From IMG/VR virus record IMGVR_UViG_3300006876_000003, positions 1 through 28,108 of that record: a DNA stretch of 28,108 nt; one strand, 5' to 3'. The stretch comes from a virus. Within the stretch, counting starts at the first letter, position 1. Each line of letters begins with the position of its first letter. The notes beneath the pieces are model-generated. The model was not told the origin of the DNA. It ran no database searches and saw only the letters and a program-made list of their open reading frames with translations. The position numbers were made by a program, and so were the translations under genes. Of this stretch, positions 2 through 22,543 are shown one piece after another.

Positions 2-328
2 ATCGACGAGGTCTGCCGGTTCATGGGCCACAGCTCGGTGCAGGTCACCGAGCGCTACGCGCGGAAGCTGAACGAGACACAAGCGCTCGCTGTTGCAGCG
101 ACGCCGGGACCAATGTTCCCAGGTGGGAACGGGAGCGGAGGTAACATGCCTACGTTACAGGACAAAACGCCGGCTTTCCTAAAGCCAAGGTCGCAAGTTC
201 GATTCTTGCTGGGGGCGCCAGGGGTTAGCAACCGTGGCAGGGAACACGGTGGGAACATTGAGCATAGTGTCTCCGCGCTAGCCCTCGCGCTGGCGGCCGA
301 GCGCGTCTTCGGGCGGGTGACGCCGTGA
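2..328 (+). CDS. int: Tyrosine recombinase/integrase, C-terminal fragment
   Basis: This is the end of a phage integrase; the 5' part lies outside the window. The visible 108 residues contain the C-terminal catalytic box: M-G-H-S-S (H10 in the visible part) followed nine residues later by the Tyr nucleophile in T-E-R-Y-A (Y19). That spacing is typical of tyrosine recombinases, which cut and rejoin attP and attB through a 3'-phosphotyrosine. After the active-site helix the frame stays open for about 85 more residues and runs through the tRNA-like attachment site (positions 171-220), where it encodes the F-L-L-G-A-P sequence typical of translated tRNA 3' ends. It stops at 326-328, overlapping the next gene by GTGA. 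Integration would therefore replace the natural C-terminal tail. Identification of the catalytic core is firm; use of the whole tail is inferred from the GTGA overlap and high GC at third codon positions after about 269. Confidence 0.88.
   Translation: MDEVCRFMGHSSVQVTERYARKLNETQALAVAATPGPMFPGGNGSGGNMPTLQDKTPAFLKPRSQVRFLLGAPGVSNRGREHGGNIEHSVSALALALAAERVFGRVTP
115..130. repeat. Left integrase arm-type inverted repeat
   Basis: GTTCCCA (115-121) and TGGGAAC (124-130) form a perfect inverted repeat with a 2-nt spacer, about 40 bp before the tRNA-like core. The same heptamer recurs on the right side of the core, as expected for arm-type integrase or excisionase binding sites. Binding is inferred from position only. 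Confidence 0.5.
171..220 (+). other. attP: Putative attP core: 3' half of tRNA-Arg(CCT)
   Basis: The segment folds as the 3' half of a tRNA. There is an anticodon arm with loop TTCCTAA (176-182, anticodon CCT at 178-180, A37), a 5-nt variable loop (188-192), and a perfect T-arm stem GCAAG/CTTGC (193-197 with 205-209) around TTCGATT. A 7-nt acceptor strand (210-216), discriminator G217 and CCA (218-220) follow. No 5' half (D-arm, matching acceptor strand) is found upstream, and the first anticodon-stem pair is C-A. It is therefore a phage-borne fragment that would restore a host tRNA-Arg gene on integration, the usual arrangement for integrases targeting tRNA genes. The exact crossover limits cannot be seen without attB. 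Confidence 0.78.
239..260. repeat. Right integrase arm-type repeats
   Basis: AGGGAAC (239-245) and TGGGAAC (250-256) are direct repeats 11 bp apart. The extended TGGGAACATTG (250-260) is an exact inverted copy of CAATGTTCCCA at 111-121 on the other side of the tRNA-like core. The symmetry supports a native attP with arms on both sides. Confidence 0.5.
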
Positions 329-765
329 GCCTGCGTCGTCAGGTGCTCGCCTTCCACCTGCGCTTCGGTGTGCCGGTCGCTTCGGCGCCGACCGAGCTCA
401 CGACGGAGCGCCTTCGGCTTCGGCTGACGCTGGTCGCCGAAGAGTTCGCCGAGCTGCTGGGCGCGGCCGGCTGCGGTCACCTGGCCGAGGTCGAGCGAGC
501 TCTGGCCAAGTCGATCGCCGTCGCCTCCCCGATCGCGGTCGACCTCCCGCTGCTCGTCGATGCGCAGGCGGACCTCGACTACGTGGTCGAGGGGTTCCGG
601 CTCGAGCTCGGCGTCGACAGCCGGCCGATCGCCGACGAGGTGCACGCGGCCAACATGCGTAAGGTCGGCGGGCCGACGCGCGGTGACGGGAAGATCCTGA
701 AGCCAGACGGCTGGCAGGCACCGGACATCGAGGGCGAGCTCCGGAAGCAGGGGTGGAGGCCGTGA
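325..765 (+). CDS. MazG-like / PRA-PH-type nucleotide pyrophosphohydrolase
   Basis: This 146-residue protein has the all-alpha NTP-pyrophosphatase pattern. A metal-binding E-E-F-A-E helix (E39, E40, E43) is followed by an acidic helix D-A-Q-A-D-L-D (D79, D83, D85). The C-terminal signature is E-V-H-x-A-N-M-R-K-V-G-G, then G-K-I-L-K-P and G-W-x-x-P-D-I. Such enzymes hydrolyse (d)NTPs to NMP and pyrophosphate, and phage copies are thought to adjust nucleotide pools or alarmone levels. The GTG start at 325 overlaps the integrase stop by GTGA. It is the first gene of the early operon, directly after attP, so integration would separate it from any promoter upstream of int. Substrate specificity is not visible. 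Confidence 0.8.
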   Translation: MSLRRQVLAFHLRFGVPVASAPTELTTERLRLRLTLVAEEFAELLGAAGCGHLAEVERALAKSIAVASPIAVDLPLLVDAQADLDYVVEGFRLELGVDSRPIADEVHAANMRKVGGPTRGDGKILKPDGWQAPDIEGELRKQGWRP

Positions 766-1601
766 CGCCCGAGTGCCTGCTCCGGGGCGAGCACGAAGTC
801 TGGCTCGGCGACGCACTGAGCCAGAGCTCGGCCGAGCTGGTGATGCACGGCGAGCAGGCCGATCTGCTCTGCGTCGACGCGCCGTACTCCGAAAAGACCC
901 ATGCCGGGCACGCCGGAGGCAAGCTGACGGCCGACTCGGCTGCCGCCTTCGCCGCTCGGCACTCGGCTGCTCCGACTCGAGAGAGCCGGTACGCGGCCCG
1001 CAAGTCGGCCGCAGGCGAGAGCGGTCGCCGCGATATCGACTACGCCGCGTTCAGTCCGGACAACGTGCGGTGGTTCGTCGAAGTGTGGGCGCCGCGCACT
1101 CGCGGCTGGTTCGTGACCATCACGGACGATTGCCTGGCTCCGGTGTGGGCAGCCGCACTCGAGGCGCACGACCGGTACGTTTTCGCTCCGCTGCCGCTGG
1201 TCGAGACAGGCTCGCGCGTCCGGATGGTTGGCGATGGTCCATCGAATTGGACCTGTTGGATCGTAGTCGCCCGGCCGCGCACCAGCAAGTTTGCCAAGTG
1301 GGGCACGCTGCCCGGCGCGTACGTCCAGCCCGGCGAGCGGGCCATGAATTCGGCTCAGGGCACCGCACGCGTTGTCGGTGGGAAGCCGCTGCGCTCGATG
1401 TGCGCGATCGTGGGCGACTACTCGCGCCCGGGCGATCTGGTTGTTGACCCGTGCTGCGGCGCCGGAACGGCCTTGGTGGCGGCTCGCTACCTTGGCCGCC
1501 GAGCGCGCGGTCTCGACGCCAAGCCGGAGCACGCCTCGCTGTCGGTGCGCGCTCTCGAGAAAACCAGAGAGCAGCGGAGCCTGTTCGCGGAGGGCGCATG
1601 A
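762..1601 (+). CDS. DNA methyltransferase (N6-adenine/N4-cytosine type)
   Basis: About 279 residues. An N-terminal G-D-A leads to the catalytic motif IV variant D-A-P-Y (residues 39-42; canonical forms are DPPY/SPPY). A C-terminal motif I, V-V-D-P-C-C-G-A-G-T near residues 226-236, binds S-adenosylmethionine and is followed by G-L-D acidic motif II. The IV-before-I order is that of beta-class amino-methyltransferases. It would methylate adenine N6 or cytosine N4 in DNA, perhaps to protect phage DNA from restriction. The GTG at 762 overlaps the upstream stop as GTGA; an in-frame GTG at 753 is an alternative start. A long Ala/Ser/Arg-rich stretch (residues about 50-85) separates motif IV from the next block. 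Recognition sequence and cognate nuclease are unknown; none is adjacent except the VRR-NUC protein. Confidence 0.82.
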   Translation: MTPECLLRGEHEVWLGDALSQSSAELVMHGEQADLLCVDAPYSEKTHAGHAGGKLTADSAAAFAARHSAAPTRESRYAARKSAAGESGRRDIDYAAFSPDNVRWFVEVWAPRTRGWFVTITDDCLAPVWAAALEAHDRYVFAPLPLVETGSRVRMVGDGPSNWTCWIVVARPRTSKFAKWGTLPGAYVQPGERAMNSAQGTARVVGGKPLRSMCAIVGDYSRPGDLVVDPCCGAGTALVAARYLGRRARGLDAKPEHASLSVRALEKTREQRSLFAEGA

Positions 1602-1699
1602 CATGCGGACACCCGTCGGTCTTCGCAATCCGGCACGACGAGGCCCTCTCGATCGTCAAGTGCAAGCACTGCCTGCACAGCTGGCTCGAGCTCGGGGCG
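1598..1699 (+). CDS. Zinc-ribbon-like N-terminal segment, frame-interrupted
   Basis: The ATG at 1598 forms an ATGA overlap with the methyltransferase stop. The first 34 codons read like a real protein, with C-G-H-P and then C-K-H-C-L-H-S-W, a plausible zinc-binding knuckle, and almost every third base is G or C. After about 1700 this frame degenerates into a Ser/Gly/Pro-rich run without a stop until 1915, while the neighbouring frame becomes clearly coding as VRR-NUC. The likely explanations are a single-base loss in GGGG (1694-1697) or CCCCC (1709-1713), a programmed -1 shift, or an out-of-frame overlap of two genes. The end given here is where coding character is lost, not a stop codon. Confidence 0.4.
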
Positions 1700-2028
1700 C
1701 CAAGGAAGCCCCCGTCGTCGCCGCAATCATTAAGCGGCTCAAGCTCGAGCGGGTCTGGTGCTGGCGGGCCAACGCCGGGACCATCGTCATCGGCAAGGGC
1801 CGAGCTCGGCGCGTCGTCCGCGGCTCGCCCGCCGGGACACCGGACATCCTCGTGGTGCTCGGCAACGGCCGACTCTGCGGCCTCGAGGTCAAGCGGCCTG
1901 TCGGTGGGACCGTGAGCCCGACGCAGCTCGAGTGGCACGCGCGCGCCTCTGAGCACGGGGTGCGCGTCGCGGTCGTGCGCAGCGTCCTCGAAGCACTGGA
2001 AGCGGTGCGGAAGTGGCGGGCGGAATGA
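1603..2028 (+). CDS. VRR-NUC domain nuclease
   Basis: From about 1702 the frame encodes a VRR-NUC domain, a small PD-(D/E)XK-fold nuclease found in phages and in FAN1-type enzymes. Visible elements are an N-terminal helix (I-I-K-R-L-K), W-C-W-R-A-N-A-G, the active-site G-T-P-D-I-L and L-E-V-K-R (Asp ... Glu-x-Lys), then Q-x-E-W and a C-terminal V-R-S-V helix. It probably cleaves branched or flapped DNA during replication or recombination. ATG 1603 lies 8 nt after GGAGGG (1589-1594), and GTG 1660 is another option. However, codons between 1603 and about 1690 have poor third-position GC, whereas the zinc-ribbon frame has high GC there, so the true N-terminus may be fused to that segment by a frameshift. 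The end overlaps the next gene as ATGA. Confidence 0.72.
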   Translation: MRTPVGLRNPARRGPLDRQVQALPAQLARARGAKEAPVVAAIIKRLKLERVWCWRANAGTIVIGKGRARRVVRGSPAGTPDILVVLGNGRLCGLEVKRPVGGTVSPTQLEWHARASEHGVRVAVVRSVLEALEAVRKWRAE

Positions 2029-2306
2029 AGTGCGCCCACTTCTGCGACTGCCTCGATTGCATGGGCGGCGAGCCGCGAGAGCCGCTGCGGGTTTACCCCA
2101 CGCCGCTCTCGCGTCGACGCGGCAAGCGCGGCCCCCACGCGCAGTGCCTACACGGGCACGACCTGACCCCGGAAAACTCGATAATCAAGCGCACCGGGGA
2201 CCGCTACTGCCGAGCCTGCAAACAGCAGAGCGACCGCGCGGCGCTGGCGCGTCATCGGGCGTCCCGGGAGACAGCCGAGCGCGCGGAAAAGGAAGCGGCA
2301 GCGTGA
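2025..2306 (+). CDS. Small double zinc-finger protein
   Basis: This 93-residue protein starts at ATG 2025 (ATGA overlap with VRR-NUC) in preference to the in-frame GTG at 2013. Two metal-binding clusters are visible. The first is an N-terminal C-A-H-F-C-D-C-L-D-C. The second is central: C-L-H-G-H, then N, then Y-C-R-A-C-K, a knuckle arrangement often seen ahead of phage HNH nucleases. The C-terminus is an Arg/Glu-rich helix and there is no HNH catalytic core. A nucleic-acid-binding role in the early operon is plausible, but no specific function can be assigned. Confidence 0.6.
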   Translation: MKCAHFCDCLDCMGGEPREPLRVYPTPLSRRRGKRGPHAQCLHGHDLTPENSIIKRTGDRYCRACKQQSDRAALARHRASRETAERAEKEAAA

Positions 2307-2458
2307 TTCTCGAAGCTCTCGAGGACGCCCGCGCAGCAGTCGCTCGCGGCGAAGACCTGGCTGCGTGGCTCGAGTTCGAGCTCCGCATGGGGTGGCTCAC
2401 CGACGAGCAGGCAAACGAGATCAGGGCCGCGATCGCGGCCAGGTTGGAGGCGGCATGA
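2303..2458 (+). CDS. Small helical hypothetical protein
   Basis: This 51-residue protein has a GTG start (GTGA overlap with the gene before) and an ATGA overlap with the initiator gene after it. It is predicted to be mostly helical, with a W-L-E-F-E-L-R-M-G-W-L-T-D-E-Q-A core resembling small phage helix-turn-helix or dimerization modules. No family is recognised. The tight coupling on both sides and GC-rich third positions argue that it is translated. Confidence 0.55.
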   Translation: MILEALEDARAAVARGEDLAAWLEFELRMGWLTDEQANEIRAAIAARLEAA

Positions 2459-3465
2459 ACTTCGAAGACGAACCCTATGTGCGGCTCTACAAGCGCCGAA
2501 CGCTGACGATCAAGCTCCTCGGCTGGGAGGGGCGCCTAGTGTTCTGGGCCTTGTTGCTGGAGGTGGACCGCGCCGGCGTTCTGGACCTCGGCTCGTCCTC
2601 GCCGGCAGAGGCCATCGCCGCGCTCTCGGACATCCCTATCGAGGTCGCCGAAATCGGCATGGCCCGCGCGCTCAAGCAGGGCGTCGTCGAGCAGCGAGGT
2701 GACGCTCTGTTCGTGCCCAGGTTCATGGAGGCGCAGGAGGCCAAGCAGTCCGACAAGGCACGACAGCGCGAGTCACGCGGGCGCCGAGCCGCTCTCATGC
2801 GCTGTTCCGAAGGCGCAATCCGCGCAGCGGCGACCGACGGAGATTCCCCGCTGAGTGTCACGAATCGTGACCACATACAGTCACAAAACGTGACCGATTG
2901 TCACGACCGGTCACACGCGGTCACACGCGGTCACTCAGAGCTCAGCTCAGCTCAGCTCAGCAGTGCTCAGCAGGGATCGGATCAAGGTAGCCGCGCCACT
3001 CCCGCACCGGAGCCTGAGACCATGCCGCCCGTCGCTTCGCCGCGGGCGGCCACCGCGAAGAAGTCCCGGTCGGTGGATTCGATTCCGGTTCCGATGTCGG
3101 ACGAGGTCATCATCCCGGACGACGTCGTCGCTGCGAAGGCCGCGCAGTGGCAGGTCGACGAGGCTCGCATCCGAGCTCAGGTCCCGGAGTTCAAGCGCTT
3201 CTGGGCACAGGACAGACCCGGCGAGCGGAGGTCACCGAAGGGCTGGCGCTCGGCGTTCGGTCGTCGCGTCGACGACCTCGGGAAGCGCGGCCTTCTGCAC
3301 GCGCCAATTCAGCAAGCGCTCGGGGTCGTCACAACGCGGGCGACGCGCGCCGCTGACCTTTTGCCTCGGCAGATGGAGCGGATTCGGCAGTTCGAAGCCG
3401 AGGAGGAAGCCGAAAGAAAGGGCGAAGTGTACGCGCGTCCCGTTTTGCTTGGAGGTTCCCGATGA
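2455..3465 (+). CDS. Phage replication initiator (lambda O-like organisation)
   Basis: About 336 residues starting at ATG 2455 (ATGA overlap; GGAGG at 2446-2450). Residues about 1-110 look like a winged-helix domain of the replisome-organizer type: Y-V-R-L-Y-K-R then a hydrophobic helix with L-V-F-W-A-L-L, then L-S-D-I-P and G-V-V-E-Q-R. It is followed by a polar linker (about 130-200) and a C-terminal Arg/Glu-rich helical domain containing F-K-R-F-W and R-S-P-K-G-W. The linker DNA carries the iteron array at 2857-2934, just as lambda O carries its origin in the middle of its own gene. The protein probably binds those iterons and recruits the helicase machinery encoded next. Family placement rests on architecture and context, not on a decisive motif. 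Confidence 0.68.
   Translation: MNFEDEPYVRLYKRRTLTIKLLGWEGRLVFWALLLEVDRAGVLDLGSSSPAEAIAALSDIPIEVAEIGMARALKQGVVEQRGDALFVPRFMEAQEAKQSDKARQRESRGRRAALMRCSEGAIRAAATDGDSPLSVTNRDHIQSQNVTDCHDRSHAVTRGHSELSSAQLSSAQQGSDQGSRATPAPEPETMPPVASPRAATAKKSRSVDSIPVPMSDEVIIPDDVVAAKAAQWQVDEARIRAQVPEFKRFWAQDRPGERRSPKGWRSAFGRRVDDLGKRGLLHAPIQQALGVVTTRATRAADLLPRQMERIRQFEAEEEAERKGEVYARPVLLGGSR
2856..2934. repeat. ori: Candidate replication origin: GTCAC/GTGAC iterons
   Basis: Eight pentamers occur in 78 bp: GTCAC at 2857, 2880, 2900, 2910, 2920 and 2930, and inverted GTGAC at 2867 and 2890. Start-to-start distances are 10, 13, 10, 10, 10, 10 and 10 bp, so nearly all sites face the same side of the helix. The first two pairs form 15-bp imperfect palindromes. 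The array sits in the linker-coding part of the initiator gene. Origin function is inferred from this layout and the lambda precedent. Confidence 0.62.
2934..2970. repeat. CTCAG pentanucleotide tandem repeat
   Basis: CTCAG occurs at 2934, four times in tandem at 2941-2960, and again at 2966. It encodes a Ser/Ala/Gln linker in the initiator. Because the unit is 5 bp, gain or loss of one copy would shift the reading frame. It adjoins the iteron array and may be part of the origin. Confidence 0.6.
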
Positions 3466-4022
3466 ATCGGTCCGAAGCCGCGAAGATCGTGGCCCTGCTG
3501 CAGGCGGCTTACCCCGGCGTTTCGATGTCCGAGGCAACGGTCAGCGTGTACGAAAGCCTGCTCAAAGACATCGACGCCGATGTCGGGAAACGGGCGGTGG
3601 AGCGGCTGATTTGTACGAATCGGTTCGTCCCGACCATCGCCGAAATCCGCGAGACCTGCGTGCTCGTGCGGCACGGCTCGGCGCGCGCCGGCGCGGAAGC
3701 CTGGGGCGACGTTGGCCAGGCGATCCGGCGGTTCGGGTCGTATCGGCAGCCGAAGTTCGAAGACCAGGCCGTCGCTCAGGCCGTGAAGTGCCTCGGCTGG
3801 CGGAACCTGTGCCTCGGAAGCTCGAACGAGTCCGCCGATCGCGCTCGCTTTTGCGAGATTTACGACAGCATCACGAAGCGCGAGCGGGAAAACGAGGCGC
3901 TTCCGCCGTCGCTCAAGGCCGCGCCGACCGTCCGAGAGCTCGGCAACGGCGCTGGCGATCACGCTTCGGTCGGCGAACTACTGGCCAATATCGGCCGCGA
4001 TTCCAACGGGGAGGACGCATGA
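3462..4022 (+). CDS. Helicase-loader-like (G39P-type N-terminal) replication protein
   Basis: 186 residues; ATG 3462 overlaps the initiator stop as ATGA, with GGAGGT at 3451-3456. The N-terminal ~65 residues match the pattern of the small helical domain of phage helicase loaders/inhibitors of the G39P type: an E-A-x-K-I-V-x-L-L-x-A-A-Y-P helix, then T-V-x-V-Y-x-x-L-L-x-D-I-D, then F-x-P-T-I-A-E-I-R-E. The C-terminal half is polar and probably flexible. Such proteins bring the host replicative helicase to the phage origin. The position immediately after the initiator mirrors lambda O-P and SPP1 38-39 gene order. No helicase gene is present in the window. Confidence 0.68.
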   Translation: MNRSEAAKIVALLQAAYPGVSMSEATVSVYESLLKDIDADVGKRAVERLICTNRFVPTIAEIRETCVLVRHGSARAGAEAWGDVGQAIRRFGSYRQPKFEDQAVAQAVKCLGWRNLCLGSSNESADRARFCEIYDSITKRERENEALPPSLKAAPTVRELGNGAGDHASVGELLANIGRDSNGEDA

Positions 4023-4942: not shown

Positions 4943-5673
4943 GGCTCGCGCTGATTGGCGCGGGCAGGCACGGGGCTCGTTACCTCGACGAGGCCAACGG
5001 CGGCGCGAACATCACCGCGATCTGCCGTTCCGCAGGTGAGACCCGCAACTACCTCGAAGACGCCGAGCACGATGGCGCGGTCATCATCGCGACGCGCGCC
5101 GAGTCGCACGCCGAGCTGGCGATACTGGCGATGCGCGAGGGGCAGCACGTGCTGCTGGAGAAGCCGGCCGCGCTGCGGTTCGAGGACATCGAGCGGCTGC
5201 TCATCACCGCGCTGCGGACCGAGCGCAAGCTCATGGTGGCGCACACGCATTGCTTCGCGGAGAACTTCCCGACCGGTCTCACGCGAGCCGACGTGGCTAT
5301 CGGTGGCCCGCGCCCGGACAGAGACATGCGCGGCGTGTCGCCGATCGCCGACTGGGGCTCGCACGCGGTGGCCATGCTCTTCGCGGCGACGGGGAAGCTC
5401 GGCGCTCCGCTGGGCGACTGGACCATCAAGCCGAGCAGTGTCGAAGGCGGCTACTCGGCGGAGTTCGAGTTCGGCACGGTGAAGGTCGGCGACTGGTCCG
5501 AGAAAGCCGTTGTCGCTGGCAACAAGGGCAATCGCTACATGGGCCCGGAGCAGGGCGCCGAGACCCCCATGAAGCGCATGGTCGACACCTTCCTGCGCGC
5601 CTGCCGCGGTGAGCCCGACTTCCGCGCGAGCTCGGAGTTTACGCGGGCCGTGTACAGCGCGGTGCTCGCGTGA
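4939..5673 (+). CDS. Gfo/Idh/MocA-family oxidoreductase, compact
   Basis: About 244 residues from GTG 4939 (GTGA overlap, AGCAGG 8 nt before). The N-terminal Rossmann fold shows L-I-G-A-G-R-H-G-A-R-Y near residues 5-15. The family hallmark V-L-L-E-K-P (Lys near residue 75) comes after A-I-L-A-M-R-E-G. These NAD(P)-dependent enzymes oxidise or reduce sugar hydroxyl/keto groups, often on NDP-sugars. Family members are usually 330-380 residues, so the C-terminal beta-sheet domain is cut down by about 100 residues. The remaining part keeps D-W-G-S-H-A, resembling the D-x-G-x-H catalytic region with His. It is the first gene of the glycan island. Substrate unknown. Confidence 0.8.
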   Translation: MRLALIGAGRHGARYLDEANGGANITAICRSAGETRNYLEDAEHDGAVIIATRAESHAELAILAMREGQHVLLEKPAALRFEDIERLLITALRTERKLMVAHTHCFAENFPTGLTRADVAIGGPRPDRDMRGVSPIADWGSHAVAMLFAATGKLGAPLGDWTIKPSSVEGGYSAEFEFGTVKVGDWSEKAVVAGNKGNRYMGPEQGAETPMKRMVDTFLRACRGEPDFRASSEFTRAVYSAVLA

Positions 5674-16157: not shown

Positions 16158-16521
16158 GCCGGAACAGCAGCCGAAGACGGCAACGCAGCTCGCGGCGGAA
16201 GCAAGCCGGCGCGAAGACCTGGAGACGACTGGCCCCGGCGAGTACGAGTGTACCGGCATCTGGTTTCCGGTGGGCCAGATGCTCCCGAACGCCAGCCGAG
16301 AGGTGATGCTGGGCGGCCACATCAGCGGCATCAGCGCGCTTTCGGGCCGCGTCGATAAGATCGTGATGCAGGCCAACGGCATCGTGCGGGTTTGCATGGA
16401 GGTGACCTCGGGGCGTCTGCCGCCGGGCACGCGGAACTACATCTTCTTCTCTGGTAACTCGTATCAGTACGCCGAGGCGGCCCCGATCACGCCGCGCGAG
16501 ATGGGAAGGCTCCGCCAATGA
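16114..16521 (+). CDS. Hypothetical protein between TerS and GroES-like gene
   Basis: 135 residues from ATG 16114, overlapping TerS by 44 bp and the next gene by ATGA. An N-terminal ~40 residues are disordered (Lys/Glu/Pro/Gln/Ala). The rest is beta-rich with a G-E-Y-E-C-T-G-I-W-F and N-Y-I-F-F-S-G-N-S-Y-Q-Y pattern. No family recognised. Its coupling to the GroES-like gene suggests joint expression. Confidence 0.6.
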   Translation: MAQAATKKTEPPASEPEQQPKTATQLAAEASRREDLETTGPGEYECTGIWFPVGQMLPNASREVMLGGHISGISALSGRVDKIVMQANGIVRVCMEVTSGRLPPGTRNYIFFSGNSYQYAEAAPITPREMGRLRQ

Positions 16522-17195
16522 AGCCCTTCCGCCTGCTCGAGGACAACGTTCTGATTCGGCTCGAGCCGCTCGAGGCCCAGTCCGGCGCGATTCACGTCGT
16601 GCGCTCCGGCGAGTGGGATAACCAGCGGCTCGCGCGCGTGCTGATGTGCGGGCCGGGCCACTACACGGAGCCCTACTTCGGCGGGCCGCGCGGCGCGCTC
16701 GTCGAGGTCGAGCCGAAGCCCGGAGACCTCGTGCTCGTGAGCAAGCATTCCGGCCACACCTACCGCCGCGGGCTCGACATCCACACGCCGAGGCAGAACG
16801 CGGACACGAGCTTCGGCGAGCTGTTCGACGAGCGCGGCGAGTACCGCATCATCCGAGCCGAGGAAGCCTACGCGCGGCGGACGACGGACGGGCTCGAAGC
16901 GCTCGGCCGGCACGTCGTCATCAAGCGCGACGACTTCGAGGAGAAGACCCCCGGCGGCATCGTCATCCCGCGGACCGTGGACGACAAGAACCTGAACGGA
17001 ACCGTGGTCAGCATCGGCCGCGGGCGCGCGCTTCGGGACGGCTCGTTCCGCCGGCACGAGATCGAGGTCGGTGACCGCATTCTCTTCGGGCAGCACGCCG
17101 GCAACCCGATCACGGTGCCGGGGCTCGAGGGCCTGATGGTCCTGCGGGATGAGGATGTGATCGCGACGTACGGAGAAGCCGAAGCTGCCGAATGA
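16518..17195 (+). CDS. Tandem GroES-type co-chaperonin (two Cpn10 domains)
   Basis: 225 residues from ATG 16518 (ATGA on both sides). It contains two GroES folds in one chain. Domain 1 (about 4-115) has L-L-E-D-N-V-L-I-R and a divergent mobile loop S-G-A-I-H-V-V, then a roughly 15-residue insertion before P-G-D-L-V-L-V. Domain 2 (about 128-220) is close to standard GroES: L-G-R-H-V-V-I-K-R, mobile loop E-E-K-T-P-G-G-I-V-I (141-150), G-T-V-V-S-I-G-R-G, V-G-D-R-I-L-F and L-R-D-E-D-V-I-A. GroES forms the lid of the GroEL folding chamber, and its G-G-I-V-L loop contacts GroEL. Phage lids such as T4 gp31 enlarge the chamber for capsid protein. A double-domain lid is known mainly from chloroplast Cpn20. 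Located in the head-assembly operon, it probably helps the host GroEL fold the capsid protein. Confidence 0.88.
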   Translation: MKPFRLLEDNVLIRLEPLEAQSGAIHVVRSGEWDNQRLARVLMCGPGHYTEPYFGGPRGALVEVEPKPGDLVLVSKHSGHTYRRGLDIHTPRQNADTSFGELFDERGEYRIIRAEEAYARRTTDGLEALGRHVVIKRDDFEEKTPGGIVIPRTVDDKNLNGTVVSIGRGRALRDGSFRRHEIEVGDRILFGQHAGNPITVPGLEGLMVLRDEDVIATYGEAEAAE

Positions 17196-20785: not shown

Positions 20786-21932
20786 AGCAGCGGAAGCGGT
20801 TTCGACGGGCGGAGGCGGCGATAGCGGCGCGGCCGTCGAGGCGAACCCCCAGGTCGGCGAGTCCGTCATTGAGACGCTTGCCCGGCTCGAAGCGGCCGGC
20901 GCTGGCGCTGAGTTCGCGGAGAGCTCGCCCGGCACCGAGGAGGCCGAAGGCGGAGGCGAGGGGGCCGAAGCTGGCGCCAAGGCGACCGAGAAGGCCAAGG
21001 GCTCGGGAAAGGCCGATTCTGACGGCGAGGAGGGCAAATCCACGTCGGCGCCCGAGGCGGGCAAGCCGAGCGCCGAGTTCATGGCCGAGGCCGAGCGCTT
21101 GGGCCTGGTCATCGACGACAAGGGCCGGGTCGCAAACGGCGAACGGAAGAAGTTCCGCGAGTACAAGGAAGCCGAGCGCGCGAAGCTCGACCAGCGCGCG
21201 CAGGAGATTTCCCAGAAGCTCGAGACCGCCCGGACCGACCTGCGGAACGACCTGATTTTCGCGAACGCGGTCCGCGCGGCGCGCGAGGCCAGGGATGAGA
21301 CCGCGCTGGCAAAGCTGCTCGGATTCGAGGACTTCGACGCCTACCAGCAGGACCTCATCAACCACAAGGCGGATCCGAACCATCGCCGGCTGATGGAGCT
21401 CGAGCGCCAGCTCCAGGAAAAGCAGCGGAAGGAGGCCGAAGCCGAGCAGGCGAACCAGCGCGCCGAGATGACCGCCCAGCAGCGCGCGGCCGAAGACCGC
21501 TACATCGCAAACCTGACCGAGCAGATGACCAAGTCCGAAGACCGCGTGGTCCGGGCGATCGGCGGGCTGCCGCTGTTCCGGGACGCCATCTACGAGATCC
21601 AGAAAGAGCACTGGGACCCGATCGCCAAGCGCACCGTCTCGCCCGAGCGCGCGCTCAAGCTGGCACTGAAGGGCGCCCCGCCGTTGCTCGAGGAAGCGCG
21701 CGCCATCTACCAGCGGCTGCACGAGGCGTTCGGCCCGGAAGAAGCCGAGGAGGCCGAAGAGCGGCCCGCGGCGAAGCCCACCCCGAAGCCGGTCGTGAAG
21801 GGCAAGCCTGCCGGCACGAAGACCGGGCCGTCGCCGAAGCCGAGTCCCAGCGCGCCGCCGGACGTCTCGAAGATGTCCGACGCCGAGGTCTCGAGGTACT
21901 GGACGAAGCGGCTGGCGGAGGCGGGCGACTAG
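20778..21932 (+). CDS. Scaffolding protein
   Basis: 384 residues from ATG 20778. Acidic Ala/Gly/Glu-rich disordered N-terminus (1-100), a long charged coiled coil (about 120-250), a conserved-looking G-G-L-P-L-F-R-D-A-I-Y segment, a Pro/Lys linker and a short C-terminal helix V-S-R-Y-W-T-K-R-L. This is the classic scaffold profile: the coiled coil self-associates and the terminal basic helix binds capsid. Lies between portal and major capsid. Stop codon shared in CTAG with the opposite-strand gene. Confidence 0.8.
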   Translation: MSEAAEAVSTGGGGDSGAAVEANPQVGESVIETLARLEAAGAGAEFAESSPGTEEAEGGGEGAEAGAKATEKAKGSGKADSDGEEGKSTSAPEAGKPSAEFMAEAERLGLVIDDKGRVANGERKKFREYKEAERAKLDQRAQEISQKLETARTDLRNDLIFANAVRAAREARDETALAKLLGFEDFDAYQQDLINHKADPNHRRLMELERQLQEKQRKEAEAEQANQRAEMTAQQRAAEDRYIANLTEQMTKSEDRVVRAIGGLPLFRDAIYEIQKEHWDPIAKRTVSPERALKLALKGAPPLLEEARAIYQRLHEAFGPEEAEEAEERPAAKPTPKPVVKGKPAGTKTGPSPKPSPSAPPDVSKMSDAEVSRYWTKRLAEAGD

Positions 21933-22543
21933 CCGCAGGTCGGCGCGAACGCCGCGCATTCTCGCAGCGCGCAGTAGCTCGCCAGAGTTTCGGCGTCGAT
22001 GCAGGGCGGCTGTTCCGTGGCCACGCCGTTCATCAGGGCGCCGTCGCCGTGCTCAAGCCCCAAGTAGTGCCCGAGCTCGTGCAGCGTGATTGTTCGGAAC
22101 AAGCCGTACTCGGCCAGGTCGAATCCGCGCTCGAGCAGCTCGACGGGGTAGATCCGTTCGGCGTCGAGCTCGATGCGCTTCTCGCGCCGGCGCGTGCAGC
22201 CGGCAGCGTGGGCCGTGTCGCCGCAGCGCTCGATCGGCTCTCGCTCGATGGTCCAGGAAGGCTGCGCACCGAAGGCAGCGGGCGCTAGGTCCACGCTGCC
22301 GCCGGTGGCGTCGAGCCACTGCCGAAAAGCGCTGTCGATTTCCGAGCGCTCGGCTGGGCGGAACTCGGGGCTCACGGCGATCGGCGCGAGGGGCTCGACG
22401 GTTTGCTCGGGAGCAGGCTCGGCAACGCAGCCGGCGGCAGCGAGAGCAAACAGGGCGACCCAGGAGCGGGCGGAGATTGGTCCGAGGGGGAGGTAGGTGC
22501 GAACCCGGGTCACCCTGCTCGAAAATCTATCACCGCGGTCCAT
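21929..22543 (-). CDS. Metzincin-type zinc metalloprotease lipoprotein (moron)
   Basis: 204 residues on the minus strand, the only gene of the window on that strand. A lipoprotein signal (W-V-A-L-F-A-L-A-A-A-G-C, C39 lipidated) is followed by a Pro/Glu linker. Then comes a catalytic H-E-L-G-H-Y-L-G-L-E-H (H155, E156, H159, H165) with a Met-turn A-L-M-N-G (M171): HExxHxxGxxH as in matrixins and astacins. Six Cys in the last half may form disulfides. It would be exported and tethered to a membrane. Not a virion gene; insertion between scaffold and capsid marks a moron, perhaps expressed in the lysogen. The ATG at 22543 is far from the signal; GTG 22513 is a shorter alternative start. Confidence 0.82.
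   Translation of the reverse strand: MDRGDRFSSRVTRVRTYLPLGPISARSWVALFALAAAGCVAEPAPEQTVEPLAPIAVSPEFRPAERSEIDSAFRQWLDATGGSVDLAPAAFGAQPSWTIEREPIERCGDTAHAAGCTRRREKRIELDAERIYPVELLERGFDLAEYGLFRTITLHELGHYLGLEHGDGALMNGVATEQPPCIDAETLASYCALRECAAFAPTCG

Follow-up and report, generated by a model that had tools for sequence, protein, structure and literature searches.

attP of the temperate phage described here probably lies inside the 3' coding region of the phage's own integrase gene (int), and the int message would in this way report whether the phage is integrated. The anatomy of the site and the swap of the reading frame upon integration are well supported by the sequence, and from these we infer an effect on recombination and on early-gene expression. 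The window, which is the whole stretch of DNA analysed, is a 28,108-base IMG/VR fragment beginning within int, and full-length int lies outside of it.

The int frame comprises 108 open codons, and its 5' end is beyond the left edge of the record. It opens with IDEVCRFMGHSSVQVTERYARKL, which is the H..Y motif found at the end of tyrosine recombinases (GHSSVQVTERY). Of the family signature R..HxxR..H/W..Y, the window holds the final H..Y part only, and the Tyr within it is presumably the catalytic residue, as in other tyrosine recombinases. A Pfam search with this short fragment gave no match, and the family call was made from the motif and from homology to locus L002, the closest viral relative, to whose integrase residues 1–85 are 54% identical. 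The full-length L002 protein matched Pfam Phage_integrase (1.4e-23) and PHROG 1. The initial annotation had proposed that the frame passes through a tRNA-Arg(CCT) core, which follows the catalytic Tyr, and ends in a GTGA overlap with the next gene. Both points were confirmed: the frame stays open through the core, which lies after the Tyr codon, and the stop TGA (326–328) overlaps the GTG at 325 of the following gene.

The tRNA half consists of the anticodon stem-loop GGCTTTCCTAAAGCC with the anticodon loop TTCCTAA (Arg-CCT), the T-arm GCAAG-TTCGATT-CTTGC and the acceptor strand TGGGGGC, followed by GCCA. It was scored by the Rfam tRNA model with 25.4 bits at 148–217, which is below the gathering score of 29, as expected because it is a half gene. 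Around the core, a repeat search found an 11-nt perfect inverted repeat (CAATGTTCCCA and TGGGAACATTG) and two copies of GGTGGGAAC, at 122 and 248, which are putative integrase arm-type sites. ARAGORN found no full tRNA in the window, be it at the left end or elsewhere. The frame continues past the core and phage genes follow, so the site is attP-like and not a simple prophage end, in line with the initial annotation. A prophage end with host genes at the left was also considered and was rejected, as there is only int on that side and early-type phage genes come after the core. A possible internal start directly before the core has a counterpart in L002 (GGAGG and an in-frame ATG at 5142–5144), and in both phages the attP stretch could be translated separately as a short peptide.

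Table 1. Features at the left end of the window, with the evidence for each.
Feature	Position	Strand	Evidence
Integrase 3' part, reads through attP	2..328	+	Open frame, GHSS..Y motif, homology to L002
Presumed catalytic Tyr codon	56..58	+	VTERYARK aligned with L002, L004, L006 and L007
Left arm-like sites, CAATGTTCCCA and GGTGGGAAC	111..130	.	Repeat search
Possible internal start: GGAGG, then in-frame ATG (146–148), just before the core	137..148	+	Sequence
attP core, 48 nt, equal to intact tRNA-Arg(CCT) of genome G511, sense to int	172..219	+	Sequence match
tRNA-Arg(CCT) 3' half up to CCA	172..220	+	Sequence; Rfam tRNA
Post-core int tail, 35 codons, predicted to be lost upon integration	221..325	+	Frame, predicted swap
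Right arm-like sites, inverted partner (TGGGAACATTG, 250–260) of 111–121	248..260	.	Repeat search
MazG-like nucleotide pyrophosphohydrolase	325..765	+	Pfam PRA-PH 2.9e-10; PHROG 671; GTG start
DNA methyltransferase, early-type	753..1601	+	Same strand as int
VRR-NUC, early-type	1372..2028	+	Same strand as int
Helicase-loader-like, early-type	3462..4022	+	Same strand as int

The block of early-type genes following int spans 753..4022 on the plus strand. The surroundings are similar in L002 and in phage Mx8. In L002, int comes after an HTH/Cro-like gene and small genes and is followed, on its own strand, by genes for RNase-H-like and ERCC4-type nucleases. In Mx8, imm is among the genes preceding int, a DnaC-like gene lies beyond int, and all are on a single strand. 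In each of the five free forms, the stop of int overlaps a start codon (offset -1). Such overlaps also occur at 62 of 155 long-frame stops of the same contigs, so the support that they give is modest (p about 0.01).

A candidate attB was sought among 317 genomes of one bacterial class, 17 of which matched the tRNA part of the core within 3 mismatches. A letter-by-letter comparison, which took in the loci of G475, G507 and G511, gave the longest exact match, 48 of 48 nt (172–219), in an intact and empty tRNA-Arg(CCT) gene of G511. This gene is a candidate attB. In the predicted G511 lysogen, the last 35 integrase residues are replaced by four (RKRG), and the translated frame across the integrated junction reads ...FLLGAPRKRG versus ...FLLGAPGVSNRGREHGGNIEHSVSALALALAAERVFGRVTP in the free phage. 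The proposal of the initial annotation that integration swaps the C-terminal tail was thereby upheld as a prediction, with which the joining of ends agrees in 10 of 11 complete relatives (see below). The exact tRNA-Arg pattern was found neither across the viral contigs (0 matches) nor in a first phylum sample (0 exact matches; 7 of 282 genomes with 2 mismatches). For G463, the nearest sense Arg-CCT relative, no second core copy within 1 mismatch and no other end were found.

From this arrangement, the following course may be proposed. The integrase would recombine the tRNA half at 172–219 with the tRNA-Arg(CCT) gene of a host. At the MazG side, an intact tRNA would then be restored from the 5' half of the host and the 3' half of the phage, and the int side would keep the catalytic part and the core and gain a host-encoded tail, RKRG in G511; the exact crossover point and the translation of both tails are assumed here. 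Most likely, the int message of the circle would encode a long-tailed enzyme and continue across the stop-start overlap to the early genes. The lysogen would make a short-tailed enzyme, and the early genes would be parted from int, and from whatever promoter drives it, until excision. Integration would have these two consequences, a changed tail and parted early genes, because int and attP lie between regulatory and early genes. With a sense core, the restored tRNA directly precedes the MazG side; with an antisense core, int and the tRNA point towards each other. Integrase activity may survive in the lysogen of the window phage, as has been reported for Mx8.

The closest viral relatives share this organisation. 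L002 has a complete int ORF of 436 amino acids with a GTGA end, which reads in the same frame through another tRNA half, Thr-CGT, in the sense orientation. Between the window and L002, silent changes dominate in the coding stretches from the Tyr to the core (pN/pS 0.32/0.68 and 0.27/0.76), whereas the tRNA part has no silent excess (0.38/0.42). In L004 and its twin L005, in L006 and in L007, int is read through antisense tRNA halves; the half of L007 has an aberrant T-loop, was missed by the T-loop scan and was assigned by eye. The integrases of L002 and L004 are 56% identical, and their cores are tRNA-Thr halves of one kind that face opposite ways. In L002, L004, L006 and L007, int, core and further phage genes follow in the same order on viral contigs of 10–83 kb. 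An earlier int stop in relatives, which had been named as an observation that would speak against the arrangement, was not seen in these close relatives. A scan of genome contigs found no close family member.

Bacterial genomes were then surveyed for the arrangement. The viral alignment was first searched against sampled genomes of one bacterial phylum and matched 24 of 282 (E up to 1e-30); the int frames of the best loci ended inside intact tRNA genes. To test the arrangement independently of the tails, a profile restricted to the catalytic domain (A3) was searched in the class containing G127 (E up to 1e-60) and gave 57 matches in 46 of 317 genomes; genomes of this class are large, with sizes up to 16 Mb. 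Scored were the 54 matches with flanks, and three partial ones were left out (G486, G416:C10 and G517:C1:4658748). The int frame entered a tRNA or tRNA half in 46 of the 54, namely antisense into an intact tRNA in 36, into antisense halves in four and into sense halves, like in the window, in six. It stopped before the tRNA in three (G447, G546 and G549:C373), and five had no tRNA within 500 nt of int. Some assignments need qualification: G447 and G472 have a stop codon inside the int match, G083 (L141) lacks the catalytic end of int, was counted among the 46 and was left out of the tree, and G283 (L142) has a probable degenerate half by eye, was scored as having none in the 54 and was labelled as through-frame in the tree. 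Of 14 distant integrases that have a tRNA or half close by, one has a frame that enters it. This control is a subset of the fetched rows, as 22 distant rows without a recognised Tyr motif are unscored and the Tyr was misplaced in a few rows (L004, which was corrected, L025 and probably L152–L154). The difference between 46 of 54 and 1 of 14 corresponds to a Fisher p of 7e-10, uncorrected for relatedness. All four other integrases that have the same tRNA-Arg half as core (G507 and G512) stop before the half.

Of the 36 intact-tRNA cases, 27 have the int stop codon within the tRNA gene, most frequently 63–65 nt from the tRNA 3' end, at a place where the conserved D-arm, read antisense, gives TGA (direct view in G024). 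On contig C11 of G250 (L138/L175), int is read through a tRNA-Thr half in the sense orientation; its frame is open for 889 codons and continues into what by eye is an apparent host gene of the Rpn/PD-(D/E)XK type. On contig C197 of the same genome (L183), a different int ends antisense within an intact tRNA-Thr, and a second core lies 13 kb further on. Through-frame integrases with core repeats were also found in elements that look too small for a phage, namely one of 5.3 kb and relatives of 8.5 and 9.6 kb (G024:C8, L163–L165, and G437:C149, L253); pairs of Cys are conserved in the circular-only tail of this type, which resembles a zinc-binding segment.

A tree of 57 integrase catalytic domains placed 17 of 19 through-frame rows in one branch (SH-aLRT 98), and the through-frame label required two changes on this tree versus about 16 for shuffled labels. 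For two viral rows in the branch, L008 and L009, no tRNA was seen. Mx8 and G250:C197 form a second group, and the Mx8 integrase is only distantly related to the clade of the window. The window belongs to an integrase clade with the habit of carrying attP in int, with the core in either orientation, and is itself a sense member.

Both states were compared in 11 complete elements whose core is repeated (G024, G522, G523, G546, G517, G437, G472, G480, G541, G536 and G451), and their circular forms were obtained in silico by joining both element ends. The circular int frame crossed the core in 10 of the 11, the exception being G546, where it stops before the core. It was longer than the integrated frame in nine, for instance 465 versus 423 codons in G024, 560 versus 443 in G523, 564 versus 431 in G536 and 505 versus 475 in G517; in G480, the integrated frame runs into host DNA and is longer than the circular one. 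The joined empty site was recognised as a tRNA in all 11. G517, the element that bears most on the window, is a sense case on a 12.2-Mb contig with an intact tRNA-Arg(TCG) 41.4 kb from int. Also sense-oriented are G480 and G472; the latter is another of the nine with the longer circular frame, although the matched part of its int contains a stop. The far end of G522 carries a partial second int copy, and this element may be composite.

A single through-frame in GC-rich DNA is weak evidence, and the overlap might be neutral: attP would be needed near the int end, GC-rich sequence has few stops, the tail would be functionless and the early genes would have their own promoter. We regard this as unlikely. 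In dinucleotide shuffles, the stretch from Tyr to core stayed open in 30% for the window and in 17–67% for 15 other integrases, so any single case might be neutral, but all 16 real stretches are open, with a product of 6e-7 when related sequences are treated as independent. Together with the 46 of 54 versus 1 of 14 integrases that enter the tRNA, this led to the rejection of a spurious GC-rich frame as the whole explanation. The tails speak for both sides. Most post-core tails are unlike each other (mean z 0.59 over 120 pairs), and AlphaFold2 predicted the L004 integrase core with fair confidence and its tail with pLDDT below 50, that is, as disordered. A domain conserved in the tails of all members was therefore rejected, as most look unrelated. 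On the other hand, when 22 circular-only tails were compared by leave-one-out profiles with 500 shuffles of each own tail, eight beat all shuffles (G522, G517, G472, G480, G541, G451, G508 and G499), and judging from these profiles a post-core segment is common to part of the clade. As good as the real tail were two shuffles for G523, two for L007, nine for the window, 89 for L002, 145 for Mx8, 150 for L004 and 334 for L006, and the profile similarity of the window's own tail to other tails is weak. For the tails of G024 and two G437 copies, pN/pS was 0.28, 0.38 and 0.83 in the three pairs, of which the two low values also argue against a neutral overlap.

Far less probable still is that the window represents the junction of two tandem prophages, or a chimeric assembly, instead of a free-phage attP. 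A tandem junction would have the same sequence as attP, and several cores are present in relatives such as G250:C197, G437 and G522. Against this stand the common order of int, core and phage genes in the four viral relatives and the exact end of the window frame at a recognisable gene. An attP within the int frame of a temperate phage is the preferred reading.

A further step is more tentative, and we hold it to be slightly less probable than its opposite: the int gene of the clade might act as a sensor of integration, with the through-frame itself being selected. The flipped core orientation between L002 and L004, with the through-frame kept, argues for such selection. In the circle, int would be rebuilt with an extra C-terminal segment and be coupled to the early genes; in the chromosome, this segment would be left without a start codon at the opposite prophage end, and the int stop codon of most antisense members would come from the host tRNA.

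The initial annotation had named archaeal SSV-type integrases and integration-dependent immunity phages as parallels. An attP in a coding frame is indeed shared with these, but the nearest precedent is Mx8/Mx9. According to the passages available, attP of Mx8 is located within int, and integration gives int a new 3' end that modifies specificity without inactivating the enzyme (PMC6070905); the int frame through the core was confirmed on AF396866. As far as these passages go, Mx8 and Mx9 resemble the window in that attP lies in int after the catalytic region and a tRNA 3' half serves as core. In Mx8 and the window alike, a tRNA-derived core is found in the int frame downstream of the catalytic Tyr, and for the window a host-encoded C-terminus is predicted with the G511 attB. 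However, the Mx8 core is antisense to int and its int stop does not overlap the next start, whereas the window core is sense, as in six of the 54 class relatives, and is from what is taken to be another tRNA (Arg-CCT), and the int stop of the window overlaps GTG. Because of the sense core, the window is called a variant of the Mx8 type.

In the archaeal elements SSV1, pTN3 and pT26-2, att is inside the integrase gene with the core in a tRNA, and SSV-type integration is described to split the gene into inactive N- and C-terminal pieces (PMC8371274). In contrast to these suicidal integrases, as portrayed in the sections available, the window retains the whole catalytic part, with the core after the catalytic Tyr, and the tail alone changes. 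The same 2021 review calls gene-disrupting recombinases 'exclusively archaeal', and Mx8 is absent from its available sections (PMC8371274). For mycobacteriophages with integration-dependent immunity, the available text reports attP in the repressor frame and a C-terminus changed by integration (PMC10865867). There the frame is that of the repressor, here that of the integrase, and the HTH genes of L002 are located upstream of int and away from the core. In Islander, 626 of 3919 islands overlap a RefSeq CDS, and its filter allows integrases extending across attP, citing Mx8 and SSV (PMC4383910, passages available); these passages hold no analysis at the family level, of core orientation or of circular versus integrated frames, as done here. 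In the literature searched, in which few subscription journals were covered, no description of the clade or of a sense-oriented bacterial case was found, and Mx8/Mx9 was the sole bacterial int found to be rewritten by its own reaction. New here, as judged from sequence, are the sense core, the clade-wide arrangement and the tRNA-supplied stop in most antisense members.

With an arrangement that is common in one bacterial class, occurs in both core orientations and is represented by complete circular and integrated pairs, an anecdote turns into a testable system for how lysogens keep excision off, and natural pairs of long- and short-tailed integrases become available for recombination work. 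For annotation, this means that int genes found antisense to an overlapping tRNA are probably genuine here, and that the int end recorded for a prophage is encoded by the host. If the sensor reading were true, self-interrupting integrases would extend from archaea to bacteria as a working switch.

Other parts of the window were also inspected. Its terminase is only about 24% identical to those of annotated phages. A sugar and methyl modification cassette is located inside the phage (4930–15418), comprising an oxidoreductase, an 835-amino acid double glycosyltransferase, FkbM and C-methyltransferases, a second glycosyltransferase and an epimerase. Just before the terminase, a protein of 225 amino acids is encoded (16518–17195) whose C-terminal half contains a GroES-like Cpn10 domain (3.5e-23) and whose N-terminal half, by eye, resembles a second, diverged Cpn10 copy. 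The product of a lone minus-strand gene amid the structural genes (21929–22543) is a matrixin-like metalloprotease (Pfam M10, 1.5e-05) that may carry a lipoprotein signal, and the gene looks like cargo.
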